Part shown: positions 4,867 to 36,461 of the stretch, in pieces
Layout of the letters: each line of letters begins with the position of its first letter
Position numbering within the stretch: position 1 is the first letter of the stretch
Virus record (IMG/VR): IMGVR_UViG_3300037132_000070
Location: 1 to 39,364 of that record
Source of the DNA: a virus
Length of the DNA: 39,364 bases
Reading direction: 5' to 3' (one strand)
Translations under genes and position numbers: made by a program
Notes under the pieces: model-generated
Database searches by the model: none
Told to the model about the DNA's origin: nothing
Seen by the model: the letters and a program-made list of their open reading frames with translations, nothing else

Positions 4867-5964
4867 ATGCCGAGTCCCTTTGAAGCCGCACGGGTCCGTG
4901 ACCTCCAGCAGGTCGTGTTGGACCAGTCGGACAGCGTTATTCGCGCCTATGATGACAAGGCGCATTTCCTCGGAATGCTCAAGACCGGCGCCCAGCCGTC
5001 AAACGAGTATGCCGAGTGGACCGCCGATGCTCCTCCGAATCCCGTTGACGGCCCCGTGGTCGAAGGCGCGGACAAGGACGACTCCTACGGTTCCTACCAG
5101 GCGCGCAAGCTGAAGAACCACTCCGAAGAGCAGCGCTCGAAGGGCTGGAAGGTCAGCACCCGCGCCCAGGCGATCCACCAGAAGGATGTCGCCAACGAGG
5201 CCGCGAAGCAGCGCCTGCGCGATGAAGAGAATCACGTCATGGGCTGGGAGGCCAAGCTCCTGTCGAACCAGGATGCGGACGACGGCAGCGGCAACGATAG
5301 CGGGATCACGAAGACCCGTTGCGTCGGCAACTGGCTCCTGCCCGTTATCGGCACCAGCGCCTACGCCGCGAATGGCGGCGCGACGGTGTTCGCGCAGCGG
5401 ACGCTGGACCCGATTCCGGCGGACATCGCCGTGACGCCGGGGCAGTACTACGACGGCACGCTGGCCAAGCTGGATGAGGCAACGTTCAAGCTCATCTGCG
5501 CGGCCGCGGCCAATCAGGTCGTTGGCGGCATTGACCTTGTGATGCACGCCGGCATGGCCCTGAAGATGCAGATGACGGGTTGGGCGCTGAACCCGACCGC
5601 CACCGTGCAGGCCAACATGGTCGTGACGCGCTTCGCCATGCTGGATGCGATGTCCAAGAAGCTGGTGACGGCGGTTGACTGGTTCCAGAACGACGCGGGC
5701 ATCGTGCGTTCGATGCTGTCCTTCTGGGTGAACCGCACGCTCACGGACAGGACCTGGCAGAAGACCGCCCTGAGCGATGCGAGCGGTTACGCCATCAACC
5801 CGAAGTTCTGGTCGATCAACTGGCTGAACCCGATTCAGCACTTCGACCCGAACAAGGGCAACAGCAAGGGTGGCGGCCTGCGCGGCTATCACCAGAGCGA
5901 CGGCATGCTCAAGCCCGGCACGGTGCAGGGCCAGTTCGCAATCGTCCCCAACGCACTCGCCTAA
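4867..5964 (+). CDS. Major capsid protein (SU10/DUF5309-like)
   Basis: This encodes 365 residues; the ATG at 4867 is preceded by a purine-rich site (CGGAGAAAG). The beginning, with the pattern of a long N-terminal arm followed by AEWTADAP and a Ser/Lys-rich stretch, then the ENHVMGWEAKLL helix and repeated Ala/Met-rich helices, is what I associate with the DUF5309/SU10-type HK97-fold coat proteins. It follows the scaffold and is the best-expressed-looking gene here (few rare codons). The exact family assignment is from memory of pattern; the role as coat protein is supported by position, size and scaffold partner. Confidence 0.8.
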   Translation: MPSPFEAARVRDLQQVVLDQSDSVIRAYDDKAHFLGMLKTGAQPSNEYAEWTADAPPNPVDGPVVEGADKDDSYGSYQARKLKNHSEEQRSKGWKVSTRAQAIHQKDVANEAAKQRLRDEENHVMGWEAKLLSNQDADDGSGNDSGITKTRCVGNWLLPVIGTSAYAANGGATVFAQRTLDPIPADIAVTPGQYYDGTLAKLDEATFKLICAAAANQVVGGIDLVMHAGMALKMQMTGWALNPTATVQANMVVTRFAMLDAMSKKLVTAVDWFQNDAGIVRSMLSFWVNRTLTDRTWQKTALSDASGYAINPKFWSINWLNPIQHFDPNKGNSKGGGLRGYHQSDGMLKPGTVQGQFAIVPNALA

Positions 5965-26979: not shown

Positions 26980-27007
26980 AGCGGGTGCCATCCGGTGCCC
27001 GCTTTTT
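26980..27007 (+). terminator. Intrinsic terminator in the late/early gap
   Basis: AGCGGGTGCC (26980-26989) pairs with GGTGCCCGCT (26994-27003, two G-T pairs) around an ATCC loop and is followed by five T at 27003-27007. This is a good Rho-independent terminator on the top strand and would end either read-through from the late operon or a separate RNA from 26.64-26.97 kb. Confidence 0.75.
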
Positions 27008-27324
27008 GCGTGCCCTTTGCGCCAGTCCGCAGGCCGAAAAGGCGGCAAGTCCAAATCAAAGCGCAAGCTCAGGGCCGCTAGAAAGAACCTGCCGCACCGA
27101 GACACCAGCAAGATCGTACCACACGTCACCGAAGCGCGAACCCCGCGAGTTTCCTAGCAAATCGTGCGCTTCTGCGGCAAACACTCGCTGCGGAAAGTAG
27201 AACAAGATTGCTGCACAAAAGCCGCTGCGCGGTCGGTGCGCCGGGTGTACATTAACCCTGTCGAGCAAATCAGGTGTCCCGCGACCAATGACAGCGGGTG
27301 GCCCATCCGGCCAAGAAAGGACCA
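27008..27324. other. Noncoding stretch upstream of the early genes
   Basis: No convincing gene is visible. A weak stem pairs TTGCGC (27017-27022) with GCGCAA (27061-27066). TACATT at 27248-27253 is a possible -10 for the early operon, but no -35 at 16-18 bases supports it. I looked for a tRNA by acceptor and T-arm patterns and found none. The early promoter is probably here, between about 27200 and 27310. Confidence 0.35.
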
Positions 27325-27363
27325 ATGAGTATCTTCACCGTCCCGAACTTCGACGCGGAATAA
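27325..27363 (+). CDS. 12-residue ORF with strong ribosome site (low confidence)
   Basis: MSIFTVPNFDAE follows AAAGGA with ideal spacing and stops six bases before the next start. It may be a leader peptide that feeds ribosomes to the next gene, whose own site is weak. Confidence 0.25.
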   Translation: MSIFTVPNFDAE

Positions 27364-27368
27364 CCAAC

Positions 27369-27587
27369 ATGCGCGCCACCTGCCCACACTGCCGCACCCG
27401 CTTCGATGTCGCGACCGCCGTCGTGCTCGCCGCAGCGGAAGCGGTGTGGGCAAAGCGCAACGCCAAACGAATGCACCGCGAAGGGACCGCGCCAGACCGT
27501 CGCCCGCAAGTCGATGCGGACATGGACGATGCGGACATGGACGATGCGATCACTCGCCGCGTGCTTGAAGGGAACGAGCACCTATGA
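27369..27587 (+). CDS. Small early protein with CxxC motif
   Basis: This encodes 72 residues from ATG 27369; its ribosome site is weak and the 12-residue frame just upstream may couple it. A single zinc-type pair CPHC near the N-terminus is followed by an Ala/Val-rich helix and an Asp/Met-rich repeat (DMDDADMDDA). One CxxC alone would need a dimer to bind zinc. It ends in an ATGA overlap. Function unknown. Confidence 0.55.
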   Translation: MRATCPHCRTRFDVATAVVLAAAEAVWAKRNAKRMHREGTAPDRRPQVDADMDDADMDDAITRRVLEGNEHL

Positions 27588-27799
27588 AGAAGCAACCCCG
27601 CGTGTACCTGCTGCAAGTCGCAAGCGGAATCGTCCGCGCCCGGAGAATGGCCGAATATGAGACCGTGATGGACGGCGACTACATCTGCATCGATGACATT
27701 GACCCGGAAAAAGAGGAGGCATCGCTTCTCGCCTCTTCGTCAATCGGTCAGCCCGTCTACTCATGGAACACCGCTCTGCACTTCTACCGCCCGCTGTGA
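27584..27799 (+). CDS. Small early hypothetical protein
   Basis: This encodes 71 residues starting in an ATGA overlap. Basic N-terminus with a beta-strand pattern (RVYLLQVASGIVRARRM), then an acidic segment with paired aspartates (ICIDDIDPEKEE). No family recognised. The tight coupling to its neighbours supports that it is translated. Confidence 0.55.
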   Translation: MKKQPRVYLLQVASGIVRARRMAEYETVMDGDYICIDDIDPEKEEASLLASSSIGQPVYSWNTALHFYRPL

Positions 27800-27813
27800 C
27801 CCAAGGAGCAACC

Positions 27814-28026
27814 ATGCCGCACACAATCATTCACCCAGCCATCCGCCCTGCAACCCGCCATCCAGCGGGCCAGATCATCACACCCGTTCGCAACCGGCAC
27901 ACGTCCAGAGAATGGTGCGCGTGCGTCGCCGCCTTCTGCGCGTGCGGGCTTGTCATCGTGGCCGCGATTGCTGCGGCCGGCGTGCTGATCGGTCGCGGGA
28001 TCGCTTGGATGATGGGAGGGCTGTAG
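27814..28026 (+). CDS. Small membrane protein
   Basis: This encodes 70 residues from ATG 27814 with AAGGAG upstream. A His/Pro/Arg-rich N-terminal part precedes one clear span, CGLVIVAAIAAAGVLIGRGIAW (about residues 44-65 before the Trp). Likely a single-span inner-membrane protein with N-terminus inside. Small early phage membrane proteins often affect host envelope or superinfection; nothing here identifies which. Confidence 0.58.
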   Translation: MPHTIIHPAIRPATRHPAGQIITPVRNRHTSREWCACVAAFCACGLVIVAAIAAAGVLIGRGIAWMMGGL

Positions 28027-28028
28027 AA

Positions 28029-28493
28029 ATGACCATGACCGCATCCGAACTCTCTGAACTCCGCAGCGTGGAGGCGATCACCAACGAGCGCAAGGCGGCT
28101 GAACGGTCGCGCCGGGGCTATGCGAACTCGCAAGCGGAATCACTGCGGTCTCTGCGGATCGTGCGGCAGATGGCGGAACGGTCGCGGGTGCGGCCATGGG
28201 GGCCTGATTACCCAGCAGATAGCGGCATGAGCAAGCGCGACTATTTTGCGGGGCAGGCGCTCGGGCACGCGATTGATTCGGTGACTTTTAGGTTGCGGGC
28301 CGAAAAAACGCCATGCGCCGTATGGCGCGACGTTTTCCACGATGGCGTGCAGGAACGTCGTGCGCTCGTCCGAAGACTGCCGGACTGGGCAAACGATGCC
28401 GACGCAAACGAGGTTGCGCGGGCGGCCGTCCGCATCGCAGACGCCCTAATCGCGGAACTGAACAAACCAGCGGCGACCGCCGCGAAGGAGTAG
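28029..28493 (+). CDS. Early phage protein carrying an inverted exonuclease fragment
   Basis: This encodes 154 residues; ATG 28029 (or 28035) follows the previous stop by two bases. The N-terminal 65 residues are helical and basic. Residues about 75-90 (MSKRDYFAGQALGHAIDS) and the C-terminal VARAAVRIADALIAEL match a short phage family of unknown function in which these two helices normally lie close together. Here about 35 extra residues separate them, and 50 bp of that insert (28324-28373) are the exact reverse complement of part of the exonuclease gene at 30410-30459. The insertion keeps the frame open. Confidence 0.6.
   Translation: MTMTASELSELRSVEAITNERKAAERSRRGYANSQAESLRSLRIVRQMAERSRVRPWGPDYPADSGMSKRDYFAGQALGHAIDSVTFRLRAEKTPCAVWRDVFHDGVQERRALVRRLPDWANDADANEVARAAVRIADALIAELNKPAATAAKE
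28324..28373 (-). repeat. 50-bp perfect inverted repeat, copy 1
   Basis: Bases 28324-28373 are the exact reverse complement of 30410-30459, about 2 kb downstream. Read on the bottom strand, this copy encodes the exonuclease peptide SDERTTFLHAIVENVAPY; beyond the 50 bp the Pro and Tyr codons differ only at synonymous positions, then similarity ends. Confidence 0.95.
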
Positions 28494-28495
28494 CG

Positions 28496-28720
28496 ATGGC
28501 AACCAAGGCGCAGATAATCAAGTCCATGCGCGATCACGGCGGCGGGTTCGTGCAGGCCCTGGCCACCGCTTATGAGCGTGCGGACCCTGACAACAGCAAG
28601 CGCATCGTGAGTGCGTTCGCTGACTACATCACAACGTATGCGCAATGGGCGGACAGGGACGCGATGCTTGCCGCCGTCAACGACGGTCCGCAGGGCGCGG
28701 GGAAGGTCGCGGCGCTCTAG
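28496..28720 (+). CDS. Small early hypothetical protein
   Basis: This encodes 74 residues from ATG 28496 with AAGGAG. It is a compact helical protein (KAQIIKSMRDHGGGFVQALATAYERAD, then NSKRIVSAFADYITTYAQWA). Short helical proteins of this kind commonly sit before the recombination genes in phages. No functional motif seen. Confidence 0.55.
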   Translation: MATKAQIIKSMRDHGGGFVQALATAYERADPDNSKRIVSAFADYITTYAQWADRDAMLAAVNDGPQGAGKVAAL

Positions 28721-28736
28721 CCGCAGGAGATGCAAA

Positions 28737-29732
28737 ATGAGTGAGTTCACAGTGAAACGTGCGACGCGTCAAGGCGTCAATCCTCTAATCGGCCTATACG
28801 GCGATAGCGGCAGCGGAAAGACCTACAGCGCGCTTTTGCTCGCACGCGGTCTTGCCGGTCCGACCGGCCGTATCGTGATGATCGACACGGAGAGCGGGCG
28901 CGGAAGCCTCTACGCTGACATTCTGCCGGGGGGCTACGAAGTCATCACAATGGGAGAGCCATTCAGCCCCAGGCGCTACATCGAGGCGCTGCGTGCGGCT
29001 GGCGAGGGCGGGACGGCCGCGGTCATTATTGACAGCGTGAGTCACGAATGGGAGGCGCTTGGAGGCGTGCAGGACATGGCCATGCAGTCCGCAAAGGACC
29101 GGGCATCGCGCTACAACAAGGATTGGGATGGCACCGTTCAGTTTGGCGACTGGAAAGCTCCCAAGCTGGAACATGCCAAGATGATGATTGCGTTGCTGCA
29201 ATCCCGTTTCCCGGTCATCGTCTGCCTGCGGGCCAAGCGCAAGAGTCATCAGGTACGCGGTACGCAGGAGATGGCCGAAGCCGGTATCATCGAAAACCGG
29301 CAGGTCGGCAAGACGGTTGTGGTCAAGGATGAGTTCACCACGCCTTTGCAGGATGAGAACTTCATCTACGAGATGACCGTCCATGCCGAGGTCCAGCACG
29401 ATCACACGTTGCGCGTGACGAAGTGCCATGTCGAACTGGCCCCCATCTTCCAGTCTGGAGCTGTTGTCGGCGTCAAGACTGGCGAGGCGCTGGCCAAATG
29501 GTGCGCCGGGAAGTCGAAGCCCGCCGCCGAAACAGATCCCCGCAAACCGCTGGTCAAGCGCCTGTGGGACATGACGGCTGCCGTCCACGGTGGCGACAAG
29601 GCCAAGCTCCAGCAGCACCTGTGGGATGAAAACCTGCTGGCGCTGGACCCGCCCGAGACGTTGGGCGAACTGTCGGCGGAACGTCTGGCGGAAGTCATCG
29701 CCAAGATCGAGGCGAAAGGCGGCAAGGCGTGA
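28737..29732 (+). CDS. AAA ATPase, Sak4-like single-strand annealing recombinase
   Basis: This encodes 331 residues from ATG 28737, preceded by GCAGGAGA. The Walker A motif GDSGSGKT is at residues 22-29 and the Walker B strand AVIIDS ends in D99. The layout, with P-loop near the N-terminus, IDTESGRGSLYAD as sensor-like segment, and a central KSHQ basic patch, matches the AAA_24/Sak4-type RecA-like phage recombinases, which anneal single strands during phage recombination. It is longer than typical Sak4 (about 230-250 residues) by a charged helical C-terminal tail. It overlaps the exonuclease by GTGA, the usual partner. Confidence 0.72.
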   Translation: MSEFTVKRATRQGVNPLIGLYGDSGSGKTYSALLLARGLAGPTGRIVMIDTESGRGSLYADILPGGYEVITMGEPFSPRRYIEALRAAGEGGTAAVIIDSVSHEWEALGGVQDMAMQSAKDRASRYNKDWDGTVQFGDWKAPKLEHAKMMIALLQSRFPVIVCLRAKRKSHQVRGTQEMAEAGIIENRQVGKTVVVKDEFTTPLQDENFIYEMTVHAEVQHDHTLRVTKCHVELAPIFQSGAVVGVKTGEALAKWCAGKSKPAAETDPRKPLVKRLWDMTAAVHGGDKAKLQQHLWDENLLALDPPETLGELSAERLAEVIAKIEAKGGKA

Positions 29733-30700
29733 GCTTCACCAACGGCAAACTTCACGGCTTCGGCGTGGCGCAAGACGCGTACCGGGCGCAGACTGCCAAG
29801 CGTGGCGAGCCAGGCTACGTCATTGGGCGTAGCGACCTTCACGAAATAGCGTCCTGCCCGTGGCGCTGGCTTCATGCGGACGGCGCGGATGACGGCACAC
29901 CGTCAACGGAGTGGGGCACGCTGGTTGACGCCATGCTTTTCGGTGGCGACATAAGCCAGTTTGTCATTGCGCCGGAAACGTACATGGGTGAAGACCGCAA
30001 GAAGAACCCGGTCGAAAAGCCGTGGAACTGGAACGCGACCGTGTGCCAGGAGTGGCGCGAGGCGCAGGGCGGCAAGCAGATCGTCAAGGCGGAAGTATGG
30101 GAGGCGGCGGAATCGGCTGCGGCTCTGTTCATGGCCGATCCACAACTTTCATACATGATGAGTGGCGCACAGTTTCAGGCGCACGTCACGGCGGATTGGA
30201 CCGACAAAGAGACGGGTATCATTGTTCCGGTCAAGACTCTCATCGACGTTGTTCCGATGCCGACGTTCAGGGTTCGCGGGCAATCGGCGCTGGCTGACGG
30301 CAAGACGGCCCGCAATGGTGCGGCCGGCGCATGGCCCCGCGTCTGCTTCGATGGCTGGTATCACGTTCAGGCGGCGATGTACCTGGACGTGTGGAAGGCT
30401 GCGAACCCGTCGGACGAGCGCACGACGTTCCTGCACGCCATCGTGGAAAACGTCGCGCCGTATGCGGTCGGTCGGCGCGAGATTGCGGACCAGCTTGTGC
30501 GCCTTGGTCGGGCGCAGTACGAGGCGGCGCTTGCCATCTATGCCAAGTGCATTGCCACAAACGAATGGCCAGGGCTTGACGATGCCGGCGAATGGACGCC
30601 TGTTGACGCCGAGCCGTGGATGATGATGCGGGCGGGCGTTGCGCCTACGGATGGAGCAATGCCAGAGATGGCACCCCTGCCCCCGGGCGCGGGACGGTAA
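29729..30700 (+). CDS. PD-(D/E)XK exonuclease (RecE/DUF3799-like)
   Basis: This encodes 323 residues, GTG start at 29729 in a GTGA overlap with the ATPase. Typical features are a CPWRWLHAD segment near the start, GTLVDAMLFGG as the first helix, IDVVP with D173, LADGKTARNG with D190 and K192 as the metal-binding pair, and YHVQAAMYLDVW as the helix after it. The C-terminal motif IVENVAPYAVGR and a late Cys-x-x ... WPG match the family. It would resect double-stranded ends to 3' tails for the annealing partner. Residues 228-244 are encoded by one arm of the 50-bp inverted repeat. Confidence 0.78.
   Translation: MSFTNGKLHGFGVAQDAYRAQTAKRGEPGYVIGRSDLHEIASCPWRWLHADGADDGTPSTEWGTLVDAMLFGGDISQFVIAPETYMGEDRKKNPVEKPWNWNATVCQEWREAQGGKQIVKAEVWEAAESAAALFMADPQLSYMMSGAQFQAHVTADWTDKETGIIVPVKTLIDVVPMPTFRVRGQSALADGKTARNGAAGAWPRVCFDGWYHVQAAMYLDVWKAANPSDERTTFLHAIVENVAPYAVGRREIADQLVRLGRAQYEAALAIYAKCIATNEWPGLDDAGEWTPVDAEPWMMMRAGVAPTDGAMPEMAPLPPGAGR
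30410..30459 (+). repeat. 50-bp perfect inverted repeat, copy 2 (native)
   Basis: This arm lies in the exonuclease frame and matches the family pattern there, so it is the parent copy. Its reverse complement occurs at 28324-28373. Both genes are read rightward, so one long transcript would carry 50 self-complementary bases. Confidence 0.95.
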
Positions 30701-30712
30701 CGAAACAACCCC

Positions 30713-30741
30713 TTGCGCACATAAGCCGCTTACGATAAGGT
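30713..30741 (+). promoter_or_regulatory. Overlapping palindromes, candidate internal promoter/operator
   Basis: TAAGC-C-GCTTA (30722-30732) and CTTA-CGA-TAAG (30729-30739) share four bases and lie eight bases before the next start. A TACGAT hexamer at 30731-30736 matches the -10 seen at 3831. TTGCGC at 30713-30718 is a weak -35 at poor distance. A regulated internal start for the SPFH gene set is possible. Confidence 0.4.
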
Positions 30742-30748
30742 GTCCTGC

Positions 30749-30898
30749 ATGAAGCGCGAAGTTAGCGAGTATCTTAGAAAAATCGGCGCAAAGGGCGGCA
30801 AGGCGTCCAAGCGCACGATCACGCCTGAGCAGCAGGCGAAGATGCAGCGCACGCGGCGGAAGGCGACCAACAAGGAGAAGGGCAATGCGCGTAGTTGA
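30749..30898 (+). CDS. Small basic protein with AKGGKASK motif
   Basis: This encodes 49 residues. After a short helical start (KREVSEYLRKIGAKGGKASK) comes a Lys/Arg/Gln-rich region (TPEQQAKMQRTRRKATNKEK). Similar AKGGKA-type short proteins with a 'TPEQ' helix are widespread in phages and plasmids and may bind nucleic acid. No strong ribosome site is visible. It overlaps the next small gene by 14 bases. Confidence 0.5.
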   Translation: MKREVSEYLRKIGAKGGKASKRTITPEQQAKMQRTRRKATNKEKGNARS

Positions 30899-30980
30899 GT
30901 TCCTGATTATCATTCTTTGCATAGCAATCGCGGCGGCGTGTGTCGTCCGTGCTGTGCGAGGCAACAACAAGAAGCAGTAG
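30885..30980 (+). CDS. 31-residue single-span membrane peptide
   Basis: Starts at ATG 30885 with AAGGAG eight bases upstream. The peptide is almost all one span, FLIIILCIAIAAACVV, with charged ends (MRVVE and RGNNKKQ). The excellent ribosome site, the overlap with the gene before and the SPFH gene ten bases after support it. It may work with the SPFH membrane protein. Confidence 0.5.
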   Translation: MRVVEFLIIILCIAIAAACVVRAVRGNNKKQ

Positions 30981-30990
30981 GAGCAGTGTC

Positions 30991-31785
30991 ATGATGAAGT
31001 TCGTTGGCGCCGTGTGCGCGTTCGTGGTTCTGTTTGTGGTGCTGGTGATGATCTTTGGTTCATGGGGAACCATCGACGCCGGCCACCGTGGCGTAGTGCT
31101 GAACATGGGTCGGGTGACGGGCGAAATCAAGGGCGAGGGTTTCTACACCAAGACCCCATGGTTTGTGAGTGTCAAGTCCATGGATGTTCGCACCCAAAAG
31201 GAGCAGGTTGAAACTGAGGGAGCCAGCAAGGACTTGCAGATGGTCCACGCGACAATCGCGCTTAACCTCTCCCTGTCTCCCGGCAAGTGCGCGGAGGTCT
31301 ATCAGTCAATCGGCGTTGACTACCTGGACAAGATCGTTGCGCCGACCATGCAGGAAAGTATCAAAGCGGTTCTTGCGCTCTACACGGCTGAAGAACTGAT
31401 ATCAAAACGCGAACTGGTGCGGGCTGATATCGCCAAGCACATTGACGACAAGTTGACGGCGTTCGGCGTCCGAACTGAGGCGCTGAACATCGTCAACTTT
31501 AACTTCAGCAAGTCATTCAACGAGGCCATCGAGGCCAAGGTGACGACCGAGCAAAACGCCATGGCGGCCAAGAACCTGCTGGCGCAGAAGGAATACGAGG
31601 CGCAGCAGTTAGTTGCCACGGCACGCGGCAAGGCCGAGGCAATGACCGTCGAAAGCGCTGCGCTTGCCAAGAATCCGACCGTGCTCCAGCTTCGCGCCCT
31701 AGAAAAGTGGAACGGTGTTCTGCCGCAGGTCATGGGTGCCGGGGCTGTGCCGTTCATCGACGTGAAGATTGCTGAGTCGAAGTAA
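30991..31785 (+). CDS. SPFH-domain (prohibitin/HflC-like) membrane protein
   Basis: This encodes 264 residues from ATG 30991 with TAGGAG upstream. One N-terminal span (FVGAVCAFVVLFVVLVMIFGSW) is followed by TIDAGHRGVVLNMGRV, the hallmark entry to an SPFH/band 7 domain, then VRTQKEQVETEGASKDLQ, and a long Ala/Glu/Lys-rich coiled coil after residue 170 ending VLPQVMGAGAVPFIDV. SPFH proteins form large rings on membranes; bacterial HflK/HflC control the FtsH protease. A phage copy may hold host protease or membrane domains in check. Full length for the family. Likely linked with the membrane peptide just upstream. Confidence 0.82.
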   Translation: MMKFVGAVCAFVVLFVVLVMIFGSWGTIDAGHRGVVLNMGRVTGEIKGEGFYTKTPWFVSVKSMDVRTQKEQVETEGASKDLQMVHATIALNLSLSPGKCAEVYQSIGVDYLDKIVAPTMQESIKAVLALYTAEELISKRELVRADIAKHIDDKLTAFGVRTEALNIVNFNFSKSFNEAIEAKVTTEQNAMAAKNLLAQKEYEAQQLVATARGKAEAMTVESAALAKNPTVLQLRALEKWNGVLPQVMGAGAVPFIDVKIAESK

Positions 31786-32689: not shown

Positions 32690-33391
32690 ATGCTTAAACT
32701 CATCGAAGACATCCGCAAAATGAAGTCTGTGCGGGACAACGATTACACGCGCTATGAAGACGGCGATTGGAAATGCTGGATTTGCGACTCCGCCCGCGTG
32801 GGGAACGGCGCCCGCGTGGGGAACTACGCCCGCGTGGGGGACTCCGCCCGCGTGGGGAACTGCGCCAGCGTGGGGGACTCCGCCAGCGTGGGGAACGGCG
32901 CCAGCGTGGGGGACTGCGCCAGCGTGGGGGACTGCGCCAGCGTGGGGGACTGCGCCCGCGTGGGGGACTCCGCCCGCGTGGGGAACTGCGCCAGCGTGGG
33001 GGACTCCGCCCGCGTGGGGAACGGCGCCAGCGTGGGGGACTGCGCCAGCGTGGGGGACTCCGCCCGCGTGGGGGACTCCGCCCGCGTGGGGAACTCCGCC
33101 CGCGTGGGGAACGGCGCCCGCGTGGGGAACGGCGCCACGGTCAACTACTGCTTATCAATTGGTCCTCTCGGCACGCGAAAGGCCATGCTGCACTACCTAC
33201 CGGAAATCGGCATGTACTCGACCGGTTGTTTCTACGGCACCAGCGAGCGGCTGCTTGAGATGAGCGCAGATAGTCATGGCAAGACCAGCGATCACTACCG
33301 CGCCTATGCTGCGGCGATTGCCGGTCTTGTTGCGCTGGCGGCGGCGATGGGATTAAGCGGACTTGCCGAACCCGCGGAGAAGGCGAAATGA
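32690..33391 (+). CDS. Hexapeptide-repeat (left-handed beta-helix) protein
   Basis: This encodes 233 residues, start directly after the previous stop with AGGAGG upstream. Residues 33-146 are 19 perfect six-residue units of the form [DN][SGCY]A[RS]VG, then a degraded twentieth. V-G-x-x-A-x is the hexapeptide rule for left-handed beta-helices. The C-terminal 70 residues (SIGPLGTRKAML ... STGCFYGTSERLLEM) match a domain I have seen after such repeats in phage and bacterial proteins of unknown role. No acyltransferase His is present. It ends in an ATGA overlap. Confidence 0.7.
   Translation: MLKLIEDIRKMKSVRDNDYTRYEDGDWKCWICDSARVGNGARVGNYARVGDSARVGNCASVGDSASVGNGASVGDCASVGDCASVGDCARVGDSARVGNCASVGDSARVGNGASVGDCASVGDSARVGDSARVGNSARVGNGARVGNGATVNYCLSIGPLGTRKAMLHYLPEIGMYSTGCFYGTSERLLEMSADSHGKTSDHYRAYAAAIAGLVALAAAMGLSGLAEPAEKAK
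32786..33127 (+). repeat. 18-bp tandem repeat, 19 units
   Basis: Nineteen 18-bp units in a row. Every unit has the same GCC, GTG and GGG codons; only four bases vary (unit positions 1, 4, 5 and 10), each changing an amino acid: GAC/AAC, TCC/GGC/TGC/TAC, CGC/AGC. No synonymous difference is seen in 342 bp. All three top-strand frames are open, a by-product of the repeat. Confidence 0.95.
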
Positions 33392-35772: not shown

Positions 35773-36461
35773 GCGCATCGTCCGCATGGTTTCCGTGCTA
35801 CGTCAACGACCTCCTGGGGTCAATGCGTTGGAAGTCGATGACCCCCGCACAGCGCGGTGCCTACTGGCAGTTGATCTGCTGGCAGATGCAGGGAGACGAT
35901 GGCACGCTGCCCGGCGATCCAGTCACTCTGTCAAGCCTCTCCGACTTGGACCTATCCAGCGTCAACGCGTGTGTTCTGGAAGCATTTCCGTTGCTGCCGT
36001 CCGGGCGCCGCGCAAACCAACGAGCGTTGCGTGAGTGGCAGAAGCGCAAGGCAATCTCTGGTGTCCGATCAGAGGTGGGAAGCGCAGGAGTAGCAAAAAG
36101 ATGGCAAGATCATAGCAAACCGATAGCAATTGCTATTCAGCCGGATAGCAAACCGATAGCAATTGCTGCTACAACCACAACCACAACCACAGCAACAGTC
36201 ACACCCACAGCCAAAGAAGAGTCTCGCTGGCAAGCCATGCTCGACAAGTACCGTGCGCTGGGGGTTAATATCGAGGTTGAGCAGTCAAAGGCCGAGGCAT
36301 GGCTACTCAGTCCACGCGGCGCCGGACGCAAAATGACGCAACGTTTTTTCGCAAATTGGCTCGGACGCGCCGCCGAATCAACCAAGGCCGTAGAGGGACA
36401 AGCCATTGGCGGCTACGCAGATCCAGATAACGACCCGTTGCTCAAGCACAGGATGAGGTGA
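35769..36461 (+). CDS. DUF1376 phage replication protein
   Basis: This encodes 230 residues, start in an ATGA overlap. WFPCYVNDLLGSMRWKSMTPAQRGAYWQLICWQ near the start is the clear DUF1376 signature (replication initiator-like, YdaU type), probably a winged helix that recognises the origin. A low-complexity linker (SKPIAIA repeats, Thr runs, residues 116-152) contains the iteron-like DNA repeats. The C-terminal part (QRFFANWLGRA) resembles DnaA/DnaT-like ends. Next gene is the helicase loader, the usual partner. It would open the origin and recruit the loader. Confidence 0.75.
   Translation: MSASSAWFPCYVNDLLGSMRWKSMTPAQRGAYWQLICWQMQGDDGTLPGDPVTLSSLSDLDLSSVNACVLEAFPLLPSGRRANQRALREWQKRKAISGVRSEVGSAGVAKRWQDHSKPIAIAIQPDSKPIAIAATTTTTTTATVTPTAKEESRWQAMLDKYRALGVNIEVEQSKAEAWLLSPRGAGRKMTQRFFANWLGRAAESTKAVEGQAIGGYADPDNDPLLKHRMR
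36112..36167 (+). repeat. Iteron-like repeats, candidate replication origin
   Basis: A 23-bp sequence occurs twice without change, at 36112-36134 and 36145-36167, 33 bp apart. Each copy ends in the 10-bp palindrome AGCAATTGCT. A strand-biased ACAACC-type stretch follows (36170-36205). Lambda-like phages keep their origin inside the initiator gene in the same way. Confidence 0.5.

Follow-up and report, generated by a model that had tools for sequence, protein, structure and literature searches.

Three plus-strand genes of one locus are considered here. They are part of the window, by which we mean the whole stretch of DNA analysed, an entire IMG/VR virus record of 39,364 bases without an annotated close relative. 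A small phage protein of 154 aa is encoded at 28029-28493, an AAA_24 / phrog_1366 ATPase at 28737-29732, and a PDDEXK nuclease of the RecE/exonuclease VIII type at 29729-30700. The small gene and the exonuclease gene share the 50-bp perfect inverted repeat that had been claimed in a preliminary description of this DNA: bases 28324-28373 in the small gene, read on the minus strand, are the exact reverse complement of bases 30410-30459 in the exonuclease gene (50/50). The ATPase gene is situated between the two copies. With one mismatch, the match extends to 53 nt (28321-28373 and 30410-30462, 52/53). The runner-up inverted pair in the window is only 21 nt long at 86%, and the chance expectation of a repeat such as this is roughly 39364^2/2 x 4^-50, which places it far beyond chance. 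An exact scan of IMG/VR with the repeat core returned no match.

The virus is far from described phages. A DNA search of positions 27000-31200 against 50,697 phage records gave no match, and single-protein scans of INPHARED, IMG/VR and GTDB genomes found no close relatives of the small gene or the exonuclease. The relatives that could be reached, through alignment scans and through other genes of this phage, were distant ones only. As a separate observation, a single PHROGs match was obtained among the large plus-strand frames tested in the structural half (1-26568), a weak one to a major head protein at 4867-5964.

The product of 29729-30700 matched phrog_412 (E 3.8e-44), DUF3799 (above the cut-off) and exodeoxyribonuclease 8 in the structure database (PDB 3h4r, E 6.9e-06). 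These profile and structure-family matches, along with the conserved D...DxKT...YHxQxAxY residues, identify it as a member of the RecE/exonuclease VIII type. Its nearest relatives found, L124 and L125, are about 40-41% identical, and both have a related ATPase gene upstream. Bases 30410-30459 (plus strand) code for (S)DERTTFLHAIVENVA(P), and L124, L125 and others align with this stretch; opposite DERTTFLHAIVENVAPYAVG of the window, L124 and L125 read DRIEFLHVLQESYAPWEVG and DRVDFLHVLQESFPPYEVG. Because the RecE-type relatives align through the whole stretch without a gap, the copy in the exonuclease gene is native to it, as the preliminary description had supposed.

The product of the small gene matched phrog_2201, a family of small proteins widespread among phages (E 3.4e-06, with residues 63-147 aligned to 58 positions of the profile), and has the motifs GM[ST]xRDYFA...ADA[ML] in common with 81 relatives. 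As in phrog_2201-like proteins, a GM[ST]xRDYFA helix is followed by an ARxAYxxADAM helix. The distance from GM[ST]xRD to the end of ADA[ML] is 76 aa, compared to 37-59 aa (mean of about 43.5) in the 81 relatives; a linker of 37-59 residues is typical of the family but does not define it, and the insert explains the value of 76. In the family alignment, the excess of ~35 residues (about 105 nt) sits between QALGHA and LPDWANDAD, and in an AlphaFold2 model it lies in a linker of low confidence that connects helices 69-91 and 123-144. The probable insert spans residues of about I82-R116 (28272-28376, plus strand), with outer limits estimated from the family alignment, and none of the 81 family members compared with the 28029-28493 gene has it. 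The proposal that the first copy is an insertion, appearing as ~35 extra residues between two helices, was therefore upheld by this comparison.

The 50-nt inverted copy supplies about 17 of the ~35 extra residues. For the rest of the insert (28272-28314, plus strand), no source was found: positions 28255-28335 were searched for in the window, phages and plasmids, and nothing beyond chance was recovered. This part is rich in rare codons, and its AAAACG... end may belong to a direct copy of the exonuclease gene. Codon adaptation of residues 83-98, the 16 codons preceding the copy, is in the lowest 2% of the phage's 16-codon stretches, and because they are so poorly adapted these codons look inserted too. 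Alternatively, the original linker was possibly long (59 residues in the longest relative) and only 50 nt were added. One phrog_2201-family member, at locus L022, directly adjoins a RecE-type nuclease and has a normal linker and no repeat. Since the exonuclease copy is native and the small-gene relatives, L022 included, are without the insert, the transfer went from the exonuclease gene to the small gene.

The two arms are identical, which bounds their divergence at less than about 6% (95% bound on 0/50). Because they are still identical, the insertion is recent relative to the protein divergence of the nearest relatives, which is ~55-60%. A background survey of 201 related phage and genome loci (1.31 Mb) for perfect inverted repeats of at least 24 bp with a spacer of at least 100 yielded a comparable repeat in L041 only (32 bp), 2 probable assembly effects aside. 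Those 2 are L115, where the repeat is at contig ends, and L116, where it is a long inverted duplication. In L041, which is another phage contig, the arms (1528-1559 and 2709-2740) are 1.15 kb apart; one covers an open-frame start at 1545, and the other contains the same start context on the opposite strand.

The preliminary description had also pointed to flanking codons that differ only synonymously (CCG/CCA and TAT/TAC in the exonuclease frame). These codons do exist, but they mean little as an argument. The synonymy of CCG and CCA is forced because CC is inside the repeat and Pro is fourfold degenerate, and that of TAT and TAC arises because the flank reads GTAT in the opposite sense, and its complement, ATAC, has the same central TA. 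A direct 10-mer, GCGCCGTATG, is the more telling feature of the flanks. The window has just two occurrences of it, 28315-28324 and 30455-30464, both in the same direct orientation (plus strand). The exonuclease occurrence spans the boundary at which the copied segment ends, and the small-gene occurrence adjoins the beginning of the inverted copy, where GCGCCGTAT(G) stands immediately to the left. The small gene has a U-turn hairpin at this point, GCGCC-GTAT-GGCGC (28315-28328), which continues into the inverted copy. At the end of the donor segment, the exonuclease gene has a native hairpin, TCGCGCCG-(12)-CGGCGCGA (30453-30480, plus strand), which is one of nine strong stems in the window (at least 8 bp with a loop of up to 15) that cover 0.5% of positions. 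The anchored similarity AAAACGTC--GCGCCGTAT / AAAACGCCATGCGCCGTAT, slightly longer than the 10-mer, was reached by 1 of 12,891 control stretches, and elsewhere in the window only about 15 positions have a 9-mer that directly matches exonuclease positions 30440-30480; these join statistics are post hoc, having been computed once the pattern had been noticed. At the right join (28368-28384) there is a small inverted repeat, GTCCG...CGGAC, with one half lying in the copied arm and the other in the flank; stems of this type are common enough for chance.

Taken together, the repeat is real and recent, a rare templated insertion in inverted sense whose turn point can be read, and the mutational kind to which it belongs is already known. 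We consider it probable that it is the scar of a single recent error of replication or repair, in which DNA folded back at the exonuclease hairpin and the product ended up in the small gene. In this reading a strand of the exonuclease gene, nascent or broken, would have folded back at the native hairpin (30453-30480) and then been lengthened by about 50 nt with the complementary strand as template, resulting in a piece that reads GCGCCGTAT in sense followed by 50 nt in antisense. This piece, together with some DNA for which no source was found, would have been captured in frame 2 kb upstream, in the small gene's linker. The shortened turn in the small gene, GCGCC-GTAT-GGCGC, would correspond to the fold-back of the exonuclease hairpin minus about 10 nt of its loop. 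The order of the steps, the polymerase and the capture step are what we infer, and the insert itself was presumably a tolerated by-product without a selected role.

Template switching, which the preliminary description had raised as one possibility, turned out to be the best explanation, and the direct 10-mer and the hairpin are the evidence for it at the level of the join. The locus has an exact reverse-complement copy with the donor still in place, as well as a hairpin and microhomology at the switch point, both recognized post hoc. The position of the inserted residues in the linker between helices, with the frame kept, also favors a fold-back. Other points weigh against it. Relatives lack the insert, but their DNA is too distant for placing the breakpoints or the four switch points, and the exact breakpoints and microhomologies are not fixed without the pre-insertion sequence. 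No source was found for about 36-45 nt of the insert, and about 10 nt of the loop in the exonuclease hairpin would have to be passed over in the U-turn. The direct 10-mer could also be native to the small gene and have merely guided the switch.

These data allow more than one scenario. A simple inverted templated insertion, made by a polymerase or end-joining error with no fold-back and with the 10-mer and hairpins as coincidences, is an unlikely account but the strongest of the alternatives. Consistent with it, 5-bp stems with short loops are common (11% of window positions), and the local RNA fold of the join is no better than those of shuffled sequences (z 0.10). Local RNA structure was also unremarkable at the other short join (z 0.57), and it was modest for 28260-28400 (z -2.24). 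However, coincidence would have to account for a 10-mer that is found nowhere else and is located exactly at both join sites, for the anchored similarity that so few controls reached, and for a donor end that falls inside one of the nine strong hairpins.

A sequencing or assembly artefact, whether an amplification chimera or a misjoin induced by the repeat, is improbable. The contig is an uncultured IMG/VR record, and strand-displacement amplification produces chimeras that are mostly inverted, with 2-21 nt of microhomology (PMC1855051). A chimera, however, would require two new joins within one gene, in frame and with the halves of the family protein in the correct order. A misjoin at the repeat could do no more than invert the segment between the arms, yet the exonuclease reads intact through its copy, and the ATPase and exonuclease genes have the same order and orientation as in L124 and L125.

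The preliminary description had further suggested that the repeat could attract RNase III or regulate the exonuclease. As a selected device, the 50-nt complementarity in a polycistronic transcript would form double-stranded RNA, be cut by RNase III, and lower exonuclease expression. In principle such cutting could occur: the computed duplex energy is -112.5 kcal/mol in isolation, the minimum-energy fold of 28251-30520 as naked RNA contains all of the 50 pairs, and no promoter or plus-strand terminator match was located between the genes. Nevertheless, the repeat is absent from all relatives and no sign of selection on it was found, the arm is merely ordinary exonuclease coding sequence, and translating ribosomes would compete with pairing. 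The suggestion was not supported, and we regard a selected device as very improbable. Just as doubtful is a control born of a copying accident, in which the mRNA of the small gene would serve as perfect antisense over 50 nt of the exonuclease mRNA, either in cis or, once processed, in trans, and so provide a new post-transcriptional control of phage recombination. If the RNA reading were true, it would mean that antisense control can arise in one event. Least credible of all is an invertible DNA switch, with 28374-30409 being turned around by recombination between the arms: at 50 bp these have sufficient length for recombination by annealing, and a RecE-type nuclease is encoded between and across them, but there is no visible gain from a flip, no invertase was identified, and the translated flipped isomer swaps the C-terminal parts of both genes for unrelated tails, on which ground this reading was rejected.

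The fold-back that we favor has counterparts in several known systems. Copying of the reverse complement makes perfect stems possible in one event (PMC8794818), and in E. coli quasipalindromes mutation occurs by the nascent strand templating itself (PMC7202029). The locus resembles both kinds of mutation in its one-step reverse-complement copy and its hairpin at the switch point. In contrast to classical quasipalindrome events, which are local and correct an existing imperfect palindrome, the donor here is at a distance of 2 kb and 50 nt were copied. The T7 replisome, helped by its 3' exonuclease, changes templates where it meets short inverted repeats in lambda DNA, moving to the displaced strand and yielding inverted chimeras (PMC9484634). 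That in vitro reaction likewise involves a U-turn at a short inverted repeat and copying of the displaced or nascent strand; its product is a long terminal hairpin, whereas in the present phage a short piece was returned to a different gene. Breaks in yeast acquire both short fold-back and distant inverted insertions (PMC11724301). The likeness is in a short inverted templated insertion made by microhomology fold-back and then captured; the yeast events depend on yeast enzymes and most local insertions are 5-34 bp, whereas here the setting is a phage genome. A diversity-generating retroelement was also considered and rejected; such an element needs direct template/variable repeats that differ at adenines, and the repeat at this locus is inverted and identical.

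Compared to the phrog_2201 small phage proteins, the protein described here keeps both conserved motifs in the same order and frame; it differs in the linker, which is ~35 residues longer, and in an N-terminal helical extension of ~45 residues. A phage protein has gained about 35 residues, probably in one step, and half of them come from an unrelated gene read on its antisense strand. As a natural case it is clean, with an intact donor and a readable turn point. Cases of this kind bear on how small phage genes diversify, and indicate that inverted templated insertions from a distance, with hairpin turns, take place in phage genomes.

Other features were observed downstream of the exonuclease gene. 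The product of 30991-31785 matched phrog_200 (E 5e-49) and, judging from its sequence, looks like an SPFH/prohibitin-type membrane protein. The gene at 32690-33391 belongs to phrog_7964, to which no function is assigned. It contains an 18-bp tandem repeat over about 400 bp that encodes hexapeptides such as ARVGDS/SVGDCA, and both of the other plus-strand frames are also long open frames. A perfect direct repeat of 23 bp, 33 bp from start to start, is present at 36112-36167.
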